Positions 18,138 to 24,870 of a stretch of DNA of 64,000 nucleotides are shown here, in pieces. Source of the DNA: Bacteroidota bacterium (GTDB taxonomy: Bacteria > Bacteroidota > Bacteroidia > Chitinophagales > Saprospiraceae). Position 1 is the stretch's first letter, and each line of letters starts with the position of its first letter. The notes under the pieces were generated by a model. The model searched no databases, was not told where the DNA came from, and saw only the letters and a program-made list of their open reading frames with translations. The position numbers and the translations under genes are program-made. The stretch is taken from NCBI GenBank assembly GCA_003045895.1, contig PZPC01000001.1:1-64000 (forward strand). Reading direction: 5' to 3'.

Positions 18138-18590
18138 ATGGCCAACGAAAACCTAACTCCCACTACTGGGCTTCAGTAAGCCCGCGACCTCATTGCCTAA
18201 GACCGGCTTGATGAGGCCCTCTCCACCCTGCGTACATGGCTGGACAATAGTCCGAAATTGGATGAAATTCTGCACCAGTCGGGTCGTTTTGCCGCTATCC
18301 GAAAACAAATCCGTCACGGCACAGTCAGCCATGCCGAAGCCAACTTGACACGCAATCAAATCAGCTACGCCCTGCTGGAATTGTTGCGTGAAATCGAAAC
18401 ACAAGAACGCGAAAACCCGACCTTGAAGCAGGAACTGGAAGCCGCCATTTCTATTACACAGTCTAAGAATGTGGTTGCAGGCTCTACCATCACTGCCGGT
18501 GGCAATGTCCAAATTGGCGACAAGCACGTGACCCAAAACGCGGAGAAGATTTATAATATCGACAAAATTGACAACGCTAATTTCTCTTGA
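18138..18590 (+). pseudogene. Effector-associated-domain (EAD) protein with two stop codons
   Basis: From ATG 18138 the frame encodes a short leader, then ARDLIA-stop-DRLDEALSTLR and the helical run through ISYALLELLREIE, which is the pattern of the small all-helical EAD11-type domain. A glycine-rich beta segment (STITAGGNVQIGD) and a tail EKIYNIDKIDNANFS follow. TAA codons at 18177 and 18198 interrupt the first helix; both sit where lysine would be natural (AAA to TAA). A TTG at 18258 could restart translation but would lose the first EAD helix. EADs couple partner proteins to STAND NTPases in conflict systems. The stop TGA overlaps the next gene's ATG (TGATG). Confidence 0.65.
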
Positions 18591-19942
18591 TGATGACCAA
18601 CGAAAACCAACCCATCCTCATCCAATCCGTTGCCGAGGGTATGCTTAACCTACAGGTGGACGGCGAGGTGCTGGAAATCCGCAATGAGCTGGCCGCCCTG
18701 CGCATACTGTTGGAGAGCCGCCAAACCCAAACGGTACAATATGCCGACAAAATTTACAACATTGCGCATATTGACGAGGCCAACTTTGGCAGTGTCACCA
18801 GCAAGATAGTGTTCAATGGTATCTTGGTGCGGCGCCTTATCAGGGCATTGGAGCAAAAGACAGGTGTGCAGGATTTCCTGCGCAACCTGCCCAGCGAGTC
18901 GGCAGACAAGTGGGAAGAGGTTCCAGCGTTCTTGCAGGACGCCCAAGTATTGGTGGGGCAGCATTTCGTGTGGGTGCTGGCCTGGGAATTGCGCCGCCTC
19001 TTCGCCATCGGAAAGGATAAACGCAAGCGACAGGAGGAAAAAGTGGACGAGTATATCGACCACTGCTTCAGCACGGCCAAGATGGCGCTCCAATTAACCA
19101 ATTTTCTGCTCATAGCAGCGCTTTGGGATAAAAAAAAGCAGCAAGAAGGATTGAAGCTAAACCCTGCGCAGTTGGAGCCCTTCTTCGGCACACGCCCCCT
19201 GACCATGCTGGAACACCACCAGTTGCTGACCAACCTGGTGGATATGTTGGTCGACAATGGCCTCGAGCTCCCGTTTGAGGAGCCAGACTTGGAGGCAGAC
19301 GGTGCTTTGAGTAAGGCCGTTGTTCGCTTGGAGGAGCTGTGCAGCCTCAACATAGCTTATGGCTTGGCACATTGCCACACTGCCGAAGCCTGTTTGGCCG
19401 ACCTGCTCGTCGGGCTGCCATTTTTCAATACCCACCACCTGGTCACCATCAAGCGGGTGGAGTACGAGGCGCTCCGCAACAACTCGCCCCGCTACGTCAA
19501 GGACTTCACCATCCTGGAGAAAAAGGAGGCGCGGGAGTGGCAGCGTATGCTGAAGTTCGACCACGACGCGCCCGTGCAGTCCTACGCCCTGCTGTTTCGC
19601 AACCACCAGCGGGCCTTCAATCTCTTTCCTTTCTTGATGGACTACCACGCGCTCATCAATGAGCGTGTCTTCCAGATACAGCTGTACGAGTGCCGCGAGG
19701 GCTGGCGCGGCCTGCGCTACTACAACGTAGAACAGGAGTGCGAGCAGGCTATGTATTACTGCGACGCCAATGCCGAGGTGATGGAAGTGCAGACCGAAGA
19801 CCAAAAGCAGGCACTGGAGCGCGACATCCGCTGCGATCTGGCCATCAAGCAGTTGGAGGACGCCATGAACACGCTCCTTGGTCCTGGCCATCGCTTCGTG
19901 AAGGAGGCCGCACGCCCAAGCGATCATTTTGGAAATATCTAA
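18590..19942 (+). CDS. Unknown protein of EAD-STAND operon
   Basis: A 450-residue cytosolic-looking protein without recognised domain. Residues 53-66 (DKIYNIAHIDEANF) nearly repeat the C-terminal tail of the EAD gene product (EKIYNIDKIDNANF), suggesting a shared docking or beta-strand tag. The remainder is mostly helical, rich in leucine, with aromatic clusters but no nuclease, protease or nucleotide-binding motif that I can identify. Translation is coupled to the EAD gene (TGATG overlap); the STAND NTPase gene starts 13 bases after its stop. By position it is an adaptor or effector that works with the NTPase. An ATG at 18593 is an equivalent start. Confidence 0.6.
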   Translation: MMTNENQPILIQSVAEGMLNLQVDGEVLEIRNELAALRILLESRQTQTVQYADKIYNIAHIDEANFGSVTSKIVFNGILVRRLIRALEQKTGVQDFLRNLPSESADKWEEVPAFLQDAQVLVGQHFVWVLAWELRRLFAIGKDKRKRQEEKVDEYIDHCFSTAKMALQLTNFLLIAALWDKKKQQEGLKLNPAQLEPFFGTRPLTMLEHHQLLTNLVDMLVDNGLELPFEEPDLEADGALSKAVVRLEELCSLNIAYGLAHCHTAEACLADLLVGLPFFNTHHLVTIKRVEYEALRNNSPRYVKDFTILEKKEAREWQRMLKFDHDAPVQSYALLFRNHQRAFNLFPFLMDYHALINERVFQIQLYECREGWRGLRYYNVEQECEQAMYYCDANAEVMEVQTEDQKQALERDIRCDLAIKQLEDAMNTLLGPGHRFVKEAARPSDHFGNI

Positions 19943-19955
19943 ATCCTCAGACACC

Positions 19956-21650
19956 ATGCGAAAGCGTTATCCATTTCCATTTTTGGACGCCTACGAACGG
20001 AAAGACCAGGATTTTTTCTTCGGTCGCGACGAGGAAATAGAGCAACTCTACCAACTCACGCAGCAGAGCAACATCGTGCTGCTCTACGGCCATTCCGGCA
20101 CGGGCAAAACCAGCCTCATCCGCTGCGGCCTGGCCAACAAGTTCCGCAGCTACGACTGGCAAGACGTCTATGTACGCCGTGGCACCCACCTCATCCGCTC
20201 CCTTGACCGGGCACTCTGTGAGGAATCTGACGGAGCCTTCGACTACGAAGACGGCGGCGACACCATCGCCGACCTGCCCCAGAAATTGGAGGCGGTATAT
20301 AGGGCCACCTTCAAGCCCCTCTACCTCATCTTCGACCAATTCGAAGAACTCTACGTGCTCGGCAGCCGCGACGAACAGGATGCCTTCGTTCGCATCATAC
20401 AGGACATCCTGCGCAGAGAGCAGCCCGTAAAGGTCATCCTCAGCATCCGGGAAGAGTACCTCGGCCACCTCTACGAGTTCGAGCGGGCCGTGCCGGAGCT
20501 GCTGCGCAAAAAGCTGCGGGTGGAGCCGATGAACCTGGAGCGTGTAAAGACCGTCCTGCTCGGCGTGAGCAACCAGCCCGACAGCAATGTACAGCTCGAA
20601 GCAGGCCACGAAGCCCCCATCGCCGAGGGCATTTTTGAGAAAATACGCGGCCAGGACAAAACCCTCCACATTCCGCTGCCTTACCTGCAGGTGTTTTTGG
20701 ATAAGTTCTACCTCGAAGTGACGGGCGACCAAAGCCGCCAAGCGGAGGCTATCTTTACCCGCCCCACCCTCGCCGCCATGGGCGACCTTGGCGACGTGCT
20801 GCGCAACTTCCTCGACGAGCAGGCCACTGCCATCAGCCGCGCGCAAGGCCTGCCAGAGGCGGAGGTATGGCGCGCGCTCTCGCCCTTCGTTACCCTCGAA
20901 GGCACCAAGGAGCCGCTCTCGGAAGCCCAACTCACTGCCCGCCTGAGCGACCTGCCCACCGGTGCGTCCGCCCGCCTGCTGCAAGCTCTGGTGCAGGGTC
21001 GTATTCTGCGCTTTTCGGAAGCCAGCCAACTCTACGAAGTGGCCCACGATGCCCTGGCCAAACAAATACACGCCAAGCGCAGCGACGAGGAGATCGCCAT
21101 CCTGGAAGTGCAGCGCCTGGTGAAAAGCCAGACGGCCATGAAGGCCGAGGCGCGGGAGTATTTTACGGAGAAGCAGCTGTTGTTTATGGAGCCCTACCTC
21201 GAAAAGCTGGTGCTGGGAGAGGCGGAAAAAGACTGGATAGCGGAGAGCCGGGTGCGGGTGCACCACCAGAAAGAGGAGGCGCAAAGGCGGCAGGAGGCGG
21301 AGCTGGCGGCGACGCAGAAGCGGCTGCGGCTGGTGCGGGGCCTGCTGGCACTGGCGCTGGTGGCGGTGCTGGTGGCGGGGTATTTGAGGGTGCTAGCCAA
21401 CGGCCAAAAAGCCGCTGCCGAAAGTGCCACGTTGGTAGCCAACGAACGCCTGCTGGAAGCACTGCAAGAAAAAGCCCAACGCCTCGAAGGCGAAAAAGCC
21501 CAATTGATCCGTGCCCAAGCCGTTTACCAAACCGCAGGGGACAGCATCCTGCAGCGCGAGACCCTACAGACCATGACCGAAAAGGACAGCCTCATACAAC
21601 TGAATGCACAAAATATACGGGATGCCCAAGCCCGCCAAAAACAACAATAA
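19956..21650 (+). CDS. Membrane-anchored STAND NTPase (nSTAND1-like)
   Basis: A 564-residue signal-transduction ATPase. The N-terminal PFPFLDAYERKD and FFFGRDEEIEQL lead-in is typical of novel STAND type 1. Walker A (GHSGTGKT) is at 45-52 and Walker B (LYLIFDQFEE) at 122-131, with arginine-sensor-type SIREEYL later and a winged-helix-like region around 330-370. A hydrophobic segment at about 460-480 is a single membrane span, followed by a charged coiled coil of ~80 residues that would lie in the periplasm. STAND proteins switch on by nucleotide-driven oligomerisation after a ligand is sensed. ATG 19956 precedes the family start; the secreted DGR-variable protein gene follows 2 bases after its stop. 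Confidence 0.75.
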   Translation: MRKRYPFPFLDAYERKDQDFFFGRDEEIEQLYQLTQQSNIVLLYGHSGTGKTSLIRCGLANKFRSYDWQDVYVRRGTHLIRSLDRALCEESDGAFDYEDGGDTIADLPQKLEAVYRATFKPLYLIFDQFEELYVLGSRDEQDAFVRIIQDILRREQPVKVILSIREEYLGHLYEFERAVPELLRKKLRVEPMNLERVKTVLLGVSNQPDSNVQLEAGHEAPIAEGIFEKIRGQDKTLHIPLPYLQVFLDKFYLEVTGDQSRQAEAIFTRPTLAAMGDLGDVLRNFLDEQATAISRAQGLPEAEVWRALSPFVTLEGTKEPLSEAQLTARLSDLPTGASARLLQALVQGRILRFSEASQLYEVAHDALAKQIHAKRSDEEIAILEVQRLVKSQTAMKAEAREYFTEKQLLFMEPYLEKLVLGEAEKDWIAESRVRVHHQKEEAQRRQEAELAATQKRLRLVRGLLALALVAVLVAGYLRVLANGQKAAAESATLVANERLLEALQEKAQRLEGEKAQLIRAQAVYQTAGDSILQRETLQTMTEKDSLIQLNAQNIRDAQARQKQQ

Positions 21651-21652
21651 CC

Positions 21653-22954
21653 ATGCGCATACTTACTTTATCCTTGCTGATTTTGTTTTTTGGCCTGCCC
21701 GGCATGACCCAGGATTGCCCACATTTCGACCGCCTTATGCGTATGGCAGACACCTACTGGCAAAACGGCGAGTTTGAAAAAGCACTGAACCAATTGGCCG
21801 CCGCACGGGAGTACTGCCCTGCTCTGAGTGGGAGGCTAGATGAAAAGTCGTTGGCCTTCACTACTGAAATCTCACGAAAGTACCGAGAGGCGGAGCAAGA
21901 AAAAAAGCGGGCGGATACAGCCCTTAATAACCTCCAACGCATCGCCGACCAAGCTGTTCCCATCGTGCTGGCTGATATTGACCAGGACATCTACCGACTG
22001 GAATACGATAGCACCTACGGAAAATGTAAAACTGCCGTAGGCCTCAACGCCCGCCGACGGGAAGTGGAAAAGCGAATATGGGAGATTGCCTACTTTTACA
22101 CAGAAGCCGATACTGTGGCAGCGGCAGTGGCCTTGCTCAACCTGCTTCAGCCTACCGGATGGACCGCCAAAACGTCTGGCCTGCAGGATAAACTGCGCAC
22201 CTACCTGGCCAAAACCCTGCCTGCCGACTACCTGAATACCTTGCAAGAACGCTATTACCCCAAAATGCTGCCAGTGGAGGGAGGAGGGGCGTTTTGGCAA
22301 GAGGAATTGGAGGATACGCTCCGAGTAGAAAAGTCTTTTTATATCGGTGAAACGGAAATCACCTACTGGCAATACCAGGTATTTGCGTGGGCAGCAAAAC
22401 ACCACATAGAACCACCCGCCTGGGAATTTTGCGGTGATAATCCGGCCGTTTATACCAACTGGTACGACGCGGCGTTTTACTGCAACTGGCTGAGCAAAAG
22501 GCACGGAAAGGATGCTGTTTATGTCCTCACCAACCCGAGCGAATATGATTGGGGTATTGCCTACGATGTGCAGATAGATACCACCGCCAATGGCTACCGC
22601 TTGCCCACCGAGGCCGAATGGGAGTTTGCGGCACGAGGCGGCAATTCTACCAATGGGTTGGAATACAGTGGGAATTCGGTTTTAGACAGTGTAGGCTGGT
22701 ATGGCGAAAATTCCAATAACCGCACCCGAGCCGTTAAGCTGAAAAAACAAAATGAACTAGGTTTGTATGACATGAGCGGCAACGTATGGGAGTGGTGTGA
22801 TGATTGGTATAGCGAGGGTGATCCGCCCCGGGTGTTCCGCGGCGGGTCGTGGTACTCCTACGCAGCGGACTGCCGTTCGGCCTTCCGCAACAACTACTCC
22901 CCCGACTCCCGCAACGACTTTGTTGGCTTCCGCCTCATTTTCGTCCCGCAGTGA
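21653..22954 (+). CDS. Secreted FGE-sulfatase (C-type-lectin-fold) protein, DGR target
   Basis: A 433-residue protein: signal peptide at 1-19, a helical TPR-like region at 20-210, then an FGE-sulfatase/SUMF1-type domain. That domain has FYIGETEITYWQYQ, YRLPTEAEWEFAARGG, GLYDMSGNVWEWCDDW and the terminal RGGSW...GFRL motif. The fold is the usual scaffold for DGR variable proteins. Residues 393-433 are encoded by the variable repeat; compared with the template at 24617 they differ mainly where the template has adenine. Varied sites include residues 395, 401-403, 406, 409, 411, 415, 419, 422 and 423. It most likely binds a ligand outside the cell or in the periplasm and signals to the STAND protein encoded just upstream. 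Formylglycine-generating activity is not implied. Confidence 0.8.
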   Translation: MRILTLSLLILFFGLPGMTQDCPHFDRLMRMADTYWQNGEFEKALNQLAAAREYCPALSGRLDEKSLAFTTEISRKYREAEQEKKRADTALNNLQRIADQAVPIVLADIDQDIYRLEYDSTYGKCKTAVGLNARRREVEKRIWEIAYFYTEADTVAAAVALLNLLQPTGWTAKTSGLQDKLRTYLAKTLPADYLNTLQERYYPKMLPVEGGGAFWQEELEDTLRVEKSFYIGETEITYWQYQVFAWAAKHHIEPPAWEFCGDNPAVYTNWYDAAFYCNWLSKRHGKDAVYVLTNPSEYDWGIAYDVQIDTTANGYRLPTEAEWEFAARGGNSTNGLEYSGNSVLDSVGWYGENSNNRTRAVKLKKQNELGLYDMSGNVWEWCDDWYSEGDPPRVFRGGSWYSYAADCRSAFRNNYSPDSRNDFVGFRLIFVPQ

Positions 22955-22978
22955 GGCGGCCTGCCTGTCCGGTTTTAC
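22829..22978 (+). repeat. DGR variable repeat (VR)
   Basis: 150 bp aligning without gaps to the template repeat at 24617..24766. Over the 42 codons ending at the shared TGA, I count 16 differences at template adenines (about 30 available) and 5 at the other ~96 positions. The invariant 3' part (from gttggcttccgc through the stop and cctgtccgg) would include the homing signal. The VR covers the last 41 sense codons of the FGE-domain gene. Confidence 0.88.
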
Positions 22979-23016
22979 TCATGAGCATAGCGAGCTGTTG
23001 AAAAAAAGTAAAGGGG

Positions 23017-23044
23017 GGGAGGGACGAACCTCCCGTGCTTTTTT
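23017..23044 (+). terminator. Intrinsic terminator after the DGR target gene
   Basis: Stem gggagg (23017..23022) with cctccc (23029..23034), loop gacgaa, then gtgctttttt. It lies 63 bases after the stop of the FGE-domain gene and should end the EAD-STAND operon transcript. Confidence 0.55.
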
Positions 23045-23075
23045 GAGGCAGTGAGCGAATAAATAGGAAACGGAT

Positions 23076-23100
23076 ACCGGCGTAAGCCGGTGATTTTTTT
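23076..23100 (+). terminator. Second hairpin with T-tract before HRDC gene
   Basis: Stem accggc/gccggt around gtaa (23076..23091) followed by gattttttt. It sits just upstream of the HRDC gene start at 23117, so it could be a second terminator or an attenuator in that gene's leader. Confidence 0.45.
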
Positions 23101-23116
23101 AGAAAAACGAGCAATC

Positions 23117-23596
23117 ATGCGAATCAAACTATTCACCATACCCGTAGGCGACAGCGGCAGCGCGCTGGCTGAGATGAACACCTTTCTGCGCGGGAACAAG
23201 ATATTGGAAGTGGAGAACCACTTGGTCCACAATGAGCATGGAGCGTACTGGTGCTTTTGTGTGCGCTACATCGAGCGAGCCTATCCGGAAGCTGACGGAA
23301 AGAAGGCCGCTAAGGTGGATTATCGCAGTGTGCTGGACGAGGCTACTTTCCAGAAGTTTAGCAAACTGCGGGAAATTCGCAAAAAGGTAGCGGCGGAGGA
23401 GGGTATCTCAGCCTTTATTATCTTCACGGACGACGAACTGGCAGAATTGGCTAAATTGGACGAGATCACGGAGCAGGCTATGCTTGGTATCAAGGGCATC
23501 GGCGAAAAGAAGACAGAGCGCTTCGCCAAATATTTTATCACTAAACCGGATTGCGTAATACGTTTACTAAACCTCCAAGGTTTAGTAAACGTTTAA
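23117..23596 (+). CDS. HRDC-domain DGR accessory protein
   Basis: A 159-residue protein. The N-terminal half (KLFTIPVGD, AEMNTFLRGNKIL, YWCFCVRYIE) has the form of small proteins often encoded beside DGR reverse transcriptases. Residues about 82-145 form an HRDC nucleic-acid-binding domain (FSKLREIRKKVAAEEGIS...LGIKGIGEKKTERF). It probably assists template RNA or cDNA handling in mutagenic retrohoming. ATG 23117 is preferred to GTG 23090. The last 11 residues (from 149) are encoded by the palindrome at 23561..23591, so the natural C-terminus was replaced or extended when the transposase element arrived. Confidence 0.8.
   Translation: MRIKLFTIPVGDSGSALAEMNTFLRGNKILEVENHLVHNEHGAYWCFCVRYIERAYPEADGKKAAKVDYRSVLDEATFQKFSKLREIRKKVAAEEGISAFIIFTDDELAELAKLDEITEQAMLGIKGIGEKKTERFAKYFITKPDCVIRLLNLQGLVNV
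23561..23591. repeat. Left palindrome of RAYT element
   Basis: A 31-base palindrome: stem cgtttactaaacct / aggttta gtaaacg around a ccaa-type centre. It differs from the right copy at 24307..24337 only in the centre. It encodes the last 11 residues of the HRDC protein. Confidence 0.85.
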
Positions 23597-23618
23597 GAAC
23601 CATTTAAACAAAAATTTC

Positions 23619-24290
23619 ATGGCTGCACGCATCAATTATTGGCAGCAGTTGGAAGAGAACCTTACCTACCATATTTATAATCATGCCGTGGGTAGGGAGA
23701 ATCTTTTTGCTACCGAGGCCAATTATACCTACTTCCTGGAACGATGGAAGAAGCACATGCCTTACTTGGATGTGTACGCCTATTGTCTGATGCCCAATCA
23801 TTTTCACTTTTTGGCCAAGGTCAAGCCTTTGGACGAATACTTGCTAGAACATATAAGAACCCAACAAACGCAAAAGGCGGAAGCCTTTTTGAAAAGCACT
23901 ATTCCTTACCATAGCTATCTTGAAGACCAGTTCAAGCGCCTGTTTTCAGGCTATACGCTGGCATTCAACAAGCAAGAAGAAAACAGAAGAGGCACTTTGT
24001 TTCAGAAACGTTTCAAAAGGGTCGCTATTTCCTCCGACTATCGTTTGCTTTATATGCTCGCCTATATTCACCACAACCCCATTCATCATAGGTTTTATGA
24101 CAATCACACGGACTGGCCTCATTCTTCCTACCAAGCTTTTTTTCAGATGGGAAAGCACTCCAACATTCGACGGCAGGAGGTGCTTTCTTGGTTCGCTGAT
24201 GATATGGATAAGGCATTGACCTTGTTTACCCAATATCATCAGGATTTTAAAACTGATCGGGATATGGGAGGATATATGTTTGAAGATTAA
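23619..24290 (+). CDS. REP-associated tyrosine transposase (Y1/IS200-like)
   Basis: A 223-residue HUH-family protein. It has the early YHIYNHAVGRENLF segment, the metal-binding HUH motif in YCLMPNHFHFL (H-x-H, about residues 65-67), and the helix with LAYIHHNPI, where the tyrosine is the likely nucleophile, followed by the WPHSSYQAF motif typical of the RAYT/transposase-17 group. Such proteins nick single-stranded DNA at REP palindromes. The flanking palindromes fit that role. The gene is intact and starts at ATG 23619, 27 bases after the left palindrome. Confidence 0.85.
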   Translation: MAARINYWQQLEENLTYHIYNHAVGRENLFATEANYTYFLERWKKHMPYLDVYAYCLMPNHFHFLAKVKPLDEYLLEHIRTQQTQKAEAFLKSTIPYHSYLEDQFKRLFSGYTLAFNKQEENRRGTLFQKRFKRVAISSDYRLLYMLAYIHHNPIHHRFYDNHTDWPHSSYQAFFQMGKHSNIRRQEVLSWFADDMDKALTLFTQYHQDFKTDRDMGGYMFED

Positions 24291-24306
24291 CCTACGTTCG
24301 TTTATA

Positions 24307-24337
24307 CGTTTACTAAACCTCGAAGGTTTAGTAAACG
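24307..24337. repeat. Right palindrome of RAYT element
   Basis: A 31-base palindrome matching the left copy except at the centre (cgaa in place of ccaa). Partial tandem repeats of aaacgtata follow immediately and lead into the reverse transcriptase remnant. Confidence 0.85.
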
Positions 24338-24342
24338 TATAA

Positions 24343-24558
24343 ACGTATAAAACGTATTTGCTCTATCCCAACCGCACCCGTTTGGCACAACGCAGCCGCA
24401 AGCGGTTTATCCAAAAATCCAAGGAGTACGAACGTTTGCTGCAAGCAGGCGAATGGTCGCAAAAAGACTATCAGCGGCATGTCGAGCCACTAACGGCCTT
24501 CACCTTGTATGCCGATGCGAAGGCGCTTCGTAAGCGTCAATTTCATTTGGCAGAATAG
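24343..24558 (+). pseudogene. C-terminal remnant of DGR reverse transcriptase
   Basis: The open frame between a stop at 24340 and TAG at 24556 encodes RLAQRSRKRFIQKSKEYERL, GEWSQKDYQRHVEPL and a final ADAKALRKRQF. This is the characteristic C-terminal thumb region of DGR reverse transcriptases (normally ~350-400 residues). The palm with its YxDD motif and the fingers are absent from this locus; the element at 23561..24337 sits where they should be. No natural start codon remains (a TTG at 24358 is the only candidate), so it should make no functional enzyme. Confidence 0.75.
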
Positions 24559-24616
24559 TGCGGTCCTGCCAAATGAATTTGGTAAGACAAAAAGGGCATA
24601 CATCGAGGGAACGAAC

Positions 24617-24766
24617 CGGGTGATCCGCGGCGGGTCGTGGAACAACAACGCAGCGAACTGCCGAACGTCGAACCGCAACAACACCCCCCCCGACAACCGC
24701 AACAACAATGTTGGCTTCCGCCTCCTTTTCGTCCCGCAGTGAGGCAGCTGGCCTGTCCGGCTTTAC
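24617..24766 (+). repeat. DGR template repeat (TR)
   Basis: 150 bp matching the VR at 22829..22978 without gaps. In the VR frame it reads RGGSWNNNAANCR...NRNN...DNRNNNVGFRL: variable residues are encoded by AAC/AAT codons, which adenine mutagenesis can diversify to many amino acids without creating stops. It lies 58 bases downstream of the reverse transcriptase remnant, the usual place for a TR. Changes at codons 17-18 and 23-24 compared with an all-AAC pattern suggest it has begun to drift. Confidence 0.88.
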
Positions 24767-24789: not shown

Positions 24790-24870
24790 ATGAATTTCTA
24801 CTACGTATATGTTCTTTTAAGTGAACAGGATGGTTTTTTTAACCTGCCAGGTAACAGACTAGTTCGATAA
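24790..24870 (+). pseudogene. GIY-YIG nuclease N-terminal fragment
   Basis: ATG 24790 starts MNFYYVYVLLSEQDGFF, the usual opening of small GIY-YIG family proteins, where FYIGYT would follow. Here the frame is lost after 15 residues and ends at TAA 24868. It is a short relic, probably deletion debris at the right edge of the island. Confidence 0.5.

Follow-up and report, generated by a model that had tools for sequence, protein, structure and literature searches.

The 64,000-nt stretch analyzed here (positions 1 to 64,000 of contig PZPC01000001.1, assembly GCA_003045895.1; hereafter the window) comes from a member of the Saprospiraceae (Bacteroidota) and carries a cassette of the diversity-generating retroelement (DGR) type. 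On the plus strand, the gene for a 433-amino-acid (aa) target protein (21653..22954) ends in a variable repeat (VR; 22829..22954) and is followed by an HRDC accessory gene (23117..23596), a 223-aa gene resembling REP-associated tyrosine transposases (RAYT; 23619..24290) between two palindromes, the remnant of a reverse transcriptase (RT) gene (24358..24558), and a template repeat (TR; 24617..24739), delimited by its alignment with the VR, by the base tally given below, and by the TR ends of relatives.

Three comparison sets were used. A sample of 150 genomes was drawn evenly from the larger family and contained 14 intact RT genes in homologous cassettes, in the order FGE target, HRDC, RT of ~332 aa, and TR. 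Genome loci were the best 80 of 496 relatives found by RT search, of which 70 had an adenine-biased TR/VR pair (at least five adenine differences and more than twice as many as at other bases), 69 passed a length filter, and 66 had full flanks. Viral-contig loci were the best 80 of at least 582, and 67 were kept. An HRDC open reading frame was present in all 80 genome loci but in only 2 of the 80 viral-contig loci; because the latter belong to a distant RT group (32 to 41% identity) and so few of them have HRDC, accessory type is inseparable from clade in this comparison.

Adenine-biased repeats in the target gene

The target protein has a C-terminal FGE/C-lectin fold (Pfam FGE-sulfatase, 3.9e-43, residues 214 to 429 of 433), with the VR at its very end, as a preliminary description of this DNA had proposed; its start resembles a signal peptide by eye. 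VR and TR align without gaps at an offset of 1788 (151 nt, 83% identity). Over the 126 bp up to the common stop (22829-22954 versus 24617-24742), 16 of 30 template adenines differ, compared to 5 of 96 other bases (one-sided Fisher test, p = 2.2e-8). The gapless paired blocks and the tally of the preliminary description (16 differences on about 30 template adenines, 5 on about 96 other positions) were thus reproduced exactly, and the differences fall mainly on template adenines, as in a DGR. An ordinary duplicated gene end would also give two similar blocks 1.8 kb apart, with some differences at bases other than adenine, as seen here, but it is contradicted both by the adenine bias and by synteny with HRDC-RT-TR cassettes, and we regard its probability as negligible. 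No credible third copy of the repeat was found in the 5.57-Mb draft genome, where the third-best match had an E value of 0.022 over 29 nt.

Adenine differences in the window VR are themselves uneven, as 12 of the 16 are A to T, which is above the expectation from even substitution. Selection on the protein or a bias of insertion could be the cause.

The extent of the repeats required correction. In the nine nearest intact relatives that were aligned, TR and VR diverge at, or about a base from, a common AG, each into its own flank, and this parting point places the proper end of the blocks at 22951 (the final base that the VR shares with TR ends of the intact type) and 24739. The blocks had been drawn to 22978 and 24766; the pairing is real, but the further ~27 nt that the two have in common are, given where the relatives part, an abnormality of the window.

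Replacement DNA in the reverse transcriptase gene and beyond the template

The nearest intact cassette, L085, lies on contig CALMSO010000045.1 of an uncultured Saprospiraceae bacterium (the same contig as L065, G100:C45) and has an nSTAND1 gene, an FGE target with VR, HRDC, RT, and TR ordered as in the window. The HRDC proteins are 86% identical over residues 1 to 145, and the RT remnant of the window is 71% identical to the C terminus of the L085 RT. The L085 cassette differs from that of the window in several ways: its RT is whole and has the YMDD motif, its TR-VR changes fall on adenines only (15 of 30, compared to 0 of 94 other bases), and the border following its TR is complementary to the flank following its own VR.

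Relative to L085, homology in the window ends at the RT start codon and restarts 798 bp further into the RT; in place of those 798 bp stand about 802 bp that comprise palindrome, transposase gene, and palindrome. What is left of the RT is its C-terminal 66 aa, beginning at column 265 of the RT alignment, and the catalytic YMDD (columns 214 to 217) is absent. The HRDC gene (Pfam HRDC, 4.7e-15) is homologous to its relatives up to ~23555, beyond which its last ten or so residues are lost and the frame continues through the left, REP-like palindrome (23558..23596). The preliminary description had correctly placed an HRDC gene and an RT remnant between the repeats but had overlooked the transposase frame and its two palindromes.

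The transposase-like protein matches NCBIfam NF047646 (8.3e-16), although its scores stay below the cut-offs of that family (58.2 versus 80 bits) and of Pfam Y1_Tnp (20.4 versus 23). It has no close second copy in the genome, where the next match is 27% identical. The right palindrome (24299..24345) has perfect 22-bp arms. With a tolerance of up to three mismatches, the genome contains three sites of the palindrome: one on either side of the transposase gene and one on contig 85 (44347-44379), where by eye it appears to lie in frame inside a gene, like the left copy that extends HRDC. The arrangement of a Y1-type transposase gene between palindromes resembles that of REPtrons (PMC2817692, PMC8266576). 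REPs are described in this literature as usually abundant, whereas the palindrome of the window has only three places in the genome and the transposase score lies below the NCBIfam cut-off. Relatives of this transposase lie near intact DGRs in 3 of the 80 genome loci (L085:8203-8733, L164:7366-7953 from Thermoflexibacter ruber DSM 9560, and L101:3947-4333), and the copy in L085 seems to be internally deleted.

No second DGR-type RT was found by RT profile searches of the 161 contigs of the draft genome, which a completeness tool estimates to be 99.84% complete, so that no catalytic YxDD of a DGR-type RT was found in the draft. A profile built from the 14 intact DGR RTs had only two matches, the remnant and a group II intron RT. 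The latter, an RT/maturase at a contig end (G000:C28:3-1247), is the sole RT above the RVT_1 cut-off and is identified by TIGR04416 (409.6 bits, above the cut-off) and a GIIM domain. Three further genomes of the genus were searched with the RT profile; two had no match, and the third had one at profile positions 3 to 249, about as strong as that of the group II intron RT. Used as a query, the 66-aa frame found RT C termini in 10 of the 149 other family genomes but had no match among phage records and, among solved structures, one at chance level (E = 1.2).

If an RT encoded at another genomic site or on a plasmid acted in trans, the local RT would be dispensable and the DGR could still be active. 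This reading would fit the intact VR and target frame, the retained post-VR element described below, and the gaps of the draft. We nevertheless consider it quite unlikely, given the estimated completeness of a draft that has no DGR-type RT and given that a foreign RT would also meet an abnormal template, as the border of the TR has been replaced.

This replacement concerns positions 24740..24766, where the post-TR RNA border of intact relatives gives way to VR-type sequence. As a direct copy the window post-TR flank scores 24, compared to 6 as a complement of its own post-VR flank, and the complementarity of post-TR border and post-VR element that marks intact members of the class is absent. 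Toward the TR border of L085, the post-VR flank of the window has kept its complementarity (score 16); the corresponding element, here called X (22969..22986), ends 35 nt past 22951 and is complementary to that border. A covariance model of the post-TR region (R1), built from 30 loci, matched each of the 14 family-set loci whose RT is intact (weakest E value, 0.028), of which five (L065, L069, L070, L071, and L073) are training loci under other identifiers. R1 had no match in the window and no credible one in the genome (best E value, 5.1, with 150 of 1033 first-look candidates scored). Recombination of the TR with a VR that belonged to a second, since lost target would produce this pattern and may be how the VR-type DNA arose; 20 of the loci examined hold two or more VRs.

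The repeats also bear signs of drift. In the mutated core, differences at bases other than adenine number 5 of 93 in the window and 72 of 6369 in the pooled relatives (101 adenine-biased pairs from 70 loci). Such differences are lacking in 72 of these pairs, and 4 pairs show at least five. By eye, comparison of the five with the TRs of relatives assigns two or three to changes in the TR and one to the VR, with one ambiguous. Such a distribution is as expected of a template that would no longer be constrained.

We conclude that the window very probably holds a defunct HRDC-class DGR, a remnant with a frozen sensor allele; it is filed as a remnant rather than as a DGR because its RT lacks the catalytic part and the draft yielded no other DGR-type RT. 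The mutagenic retrohoming proposed in the preliminary description is supported as a past event by the adenine-specific pattern together with the intact homologues, and nothing suggests activity at present. A DGR acting now is at odds with an RT reduced to its C terminus in a draft that offers no other, a replaced TR border, and a truncated HRDC. In the sequence of events that we envisage, the FGE/C-lectin target would formerly have been rewritten at template adenines by an RT copying the TR into the VR. Later, the RAYT-like gene with its two palindromes would have taken the place of that portion of the RT gene which runs from the start codon to a point beyond the YMDD, shortening HRDC at its end. 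VR-type DNA would also have appeared beyond the TR, with loss of the border complementary to the post-VR element. Comparison with relatives shows, at the level of sequence, that the RT and the TR border were replaced, while the order, agent, and route of these events are our proposal. With the RT absent and the TR border abnormal, the VR would now be ordinary inherited sequence, and the TR would be free to drift.

Several points weigh against this interpretation. The absence of an RT is provisional because a draft of 161 contigs has gaps in which one could sit, and a population with an intact RT may exist. The target, HRDC, and transposase frames are all open. The R1 scan of the genome scored only a part of its first-look candidates (the 150 of 1033 given above), and the count of non-adenine differences in the window lies in the tail of the relatives without being unique, in a comparison set that was itself filtered for adenine bias. 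The transposase version could also be a misjoin or a minority variant in a strain whose RT is intact; intact and transposon-interrupted DGRs have been described together in one sample in the case of Thiohalocapsa PB-PSB1 (PMC10907252). Such an artefact or mixture is hardly to be expected here, however, as the locus lies inside a 227-kb contig, the HRDC-transposase and transposase-RT junctions are separate, and the lesion of the TR border and the stops in an upstream EAD11 frame (see below) agree with decay.

Paired elements beyond the repeats of intact loci

In intact HRDC-class loci, ~14 to 18 nt directly after the TR (X') are reverse-complementary to a segment that ends ~35 nt past the VR (X). 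The complementarity was significant against shuffled sequence at p ≤ 0.005 in 62 of 66 genome loci and 0 of 67 viral loci, and at p ≤ 0.05 in 65 and 3, respectively. These figures were obtained after the flank start had been moved 12 nt upstream in both sets, a change made after the first result (49 of 66 genome loci with unshifted flanks) because the BLAST boundary had overrun the TR end through chance matches. Among the 62 loci, a few pair at other offsets. In a stricter, anchored count over 14 nt in 64 loci, the number of paired positions was 13 or 14 in 50 loci, at least 12 in 55, and no more than 8 in 4. The 50 comprise 29 distinct 14-mers, and 7.8% of cross-locus comparisons reach the same level. 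Upstream flanks were complementary at p ≤ 0.01 in 0 of 64 and 0 of 66 loci.

Further observations describe the pairing. First, when VR flanks were permuted among 44 loci with distinct TR borders, the mean score was 15.5 for own partners and 7.1 for permuted ones (standard deviation, 0.35; maximum in 10,000 permutations, 8.75), and the own VR was the best or tied-best partner in 33 of the 44; in viral loci, own and permuted scores were alike (5.63 and 5.70). Second, the paired bases covary: one position shows all four bases in paired form, with 36 of 41 rows paired (one of the 42 rows of the per-position table is empty and is counted once in every paired figure). Third, in the 20 loci with several VRs, complementarity was kept by 44 of 45 VRs at p ≤ 0.01, although some VRs may be counted twice, as L119 and L126 overlap on one contig. 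Fourth, pairing breaks off abruptly at the border of the TR: 97% of loci are paired at the final base that it shares with the VR and 30% one base earlier, and on the other side the pairing fades gradually. This was measured in 33 unique loci preselected for at least 12 matches, so that the high values at positions 0 to 13 are partly selected but the drop at position -1 is not. The X end lay 30 to 36 nt past the VR end in 30 of the 33 loci, most often at 35, which is also the value in the window.

Comparison of sequences thus shows the complementarity, its covariation and position, and its absence from the window. As to its role, we lean slightly towards a guide function, in which pairing of X' with the X beyond each VR would aim the template RNA of HRDC-class DGRs at the target. 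Aiming is the simplest role for the pairing because X' would be in the template RNA and X is beside each target, and the window would be an outcome of X' loss, in which X and a frozen VR are left behind. A bolder and rather doubtful proposal, less likely than that of a guide, is that X serves as a primer for copying the TR, since the duplex stops at the final base shared by the TR. In that case X, on a nicked top strand or a cut transcript, would have its 3' end right next to the TR template, as a primer has when bound to its site; cDNA extended from it would be continuous with the target strand and might fold back on the VR.

The complementarity might instead reflect a structure of transcript or DNA (message stability, processing, or a cruciform) with no part in target finding. 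TR and VR lie on the same strand in the loci examined, as such a structure would allow, and no antisense VR, by which pairing in cis could be told from pairing in trans, was found in the 66 loci scanned. The retention of complementarity by nearly every VR of multi-VR loci and the position of the pairing edge at the TR end speak against it, and we hold this reading to be a real possibility but the less probable one. VRs far from their TR were sought in 12 family genomes; 11 contained matches, none of which was established as a remote VR with X.

A local hairpin after the VR was rejected as a feature of the class, since a stem of at least 7 occurred in 1 of 66 HRDC loci and 4 of 67 viral loci. 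In the 30 loci of alignment A4, the region 3' of X' retains a small hairpin whose loop is GGAT-like, together with a nearly constant motif resembling GAACAGAT; this region is possibly the RT-binding or priming part of the template RNA. Rfam gave no family for the four intact loci searched, and RNAalifold predicted nothing more in the post-TR region than a hairpin of three pairs, two of which covary. A second type of DGR occurs in G023:C92 (L254) and G093:C112 (L264), with a gene of 116 to 118 aa before the RT, which we take to be Avd, and a TR without an X' border; both genomes also carry HRDC-class DGRs.

Neighboring genes, known systems, and biological meaning

The target gene stands in a row that includes the gene for a 573-aa nSTAND1 NTPase (19929..21650, plus strand; Pfam nSTAND1, 6.9e-43) with a likely membrane segment by eye. 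Upstream, also on the plus strand, lie the gene for a 451-aa protein with no family match below an E value of 0.1 (18587..19942) and a frame for the effector-associated domain EAD11 (18138..18590). The latter contains in-frame TAA codons at 18177-18179 and 18198-18200 and is open only from 18201; its open part matches Pfam EAD11 (1.7e-11) at profile positions 35 to 80 of 80. Of the parts of an nSTAND/EAD conflict system (STAND NTPase, EAD adapter, sensor, and effector), the window has nSTAND1 and an FGE sensor, together with an EAD11 frame that is stopped twice; the portion of the row that would belong to such a system could be in decay as well. No effector of such a system was recognized among the neighboring genes, to which the search was confined. 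Just 3' of the TR, at 24790-24870, the start of a GIY-YIG-like frame was seen by eye and is apparently truncated.

In Thiohalocapsa PB-PSB1 (PMC10907252), FGE domains are DGR targets together with nSTAND1 and EAD in putative conflict systems, and RT genes are replaced by MITE-like repeats or interrupted by transposons. There, however, STAND is fused to the diversified domain and the effector-associated domain is EAD8. The window has one gene for nSTAND1 and another for the target, and a RAYT-like gene with palindromes stands in place of the lost RT sequence. As such, the dead cassette exemplifies a known phenomenon, the replacement or interruption of RT genes by mobile DNA (PMC10907252).

HRDC is likewise known as a DGR accessory (PMC3240598, PMC10053308). 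The DGR of Bordetella phage BPP-1 shares the TR/VR pair with adenine-specific mutagenesis but has Avd instead of HRDC, and the cis element just 3' of its VR, which is required for efficient homing, is a local hairpin (PMC3240598, PMC12875486); in the HRDC loci, the post-VR flank has its conserved partner in the post-TR flank. The cDNA of BPP-1 is primed from spacer RNA, and retrohoming, including the way in which mutated cDNA gets to and into the target, is called incompletely understood even for this model DGR (PMC12875486). Guo et al. raised the possibility that the loop of the BPP-1 post-VR hairpin contacts a TR-containing RNA (PMC3240598). No report of pairing between post-VR and post-TR flanks was found in the available parts of the DGR literature searched, including PMC3240598, PMC12875486, PMC10053308, PMC3521204, PMC4372165, PMC8144416, and PMC10907252, so that the paired flank elements X and X' may be new, their novelty being provisional.

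The window can be read as a natural knockout, in which a diversified sensor would have been frozen after its engine was replaced, the allele sharing its gene row with the nSTAND NTPase gene and the interrupted EAD11 frame. Such fossils can reveal whether selection keeps a sensor allele once diversification ends. The main interest lies in the putative target-recognition element to which the dead cassette led. If the proposal for X and X' is true, HRDC-class DGRs would have a mode of recognition, and perhaps of priming, unlike the local hairpin and spacer-RNA priming of BPP-1. It would give a concrete hypothesis for the class that is open to compensatory mutation and a rule by which TR ends and targets may be computed.

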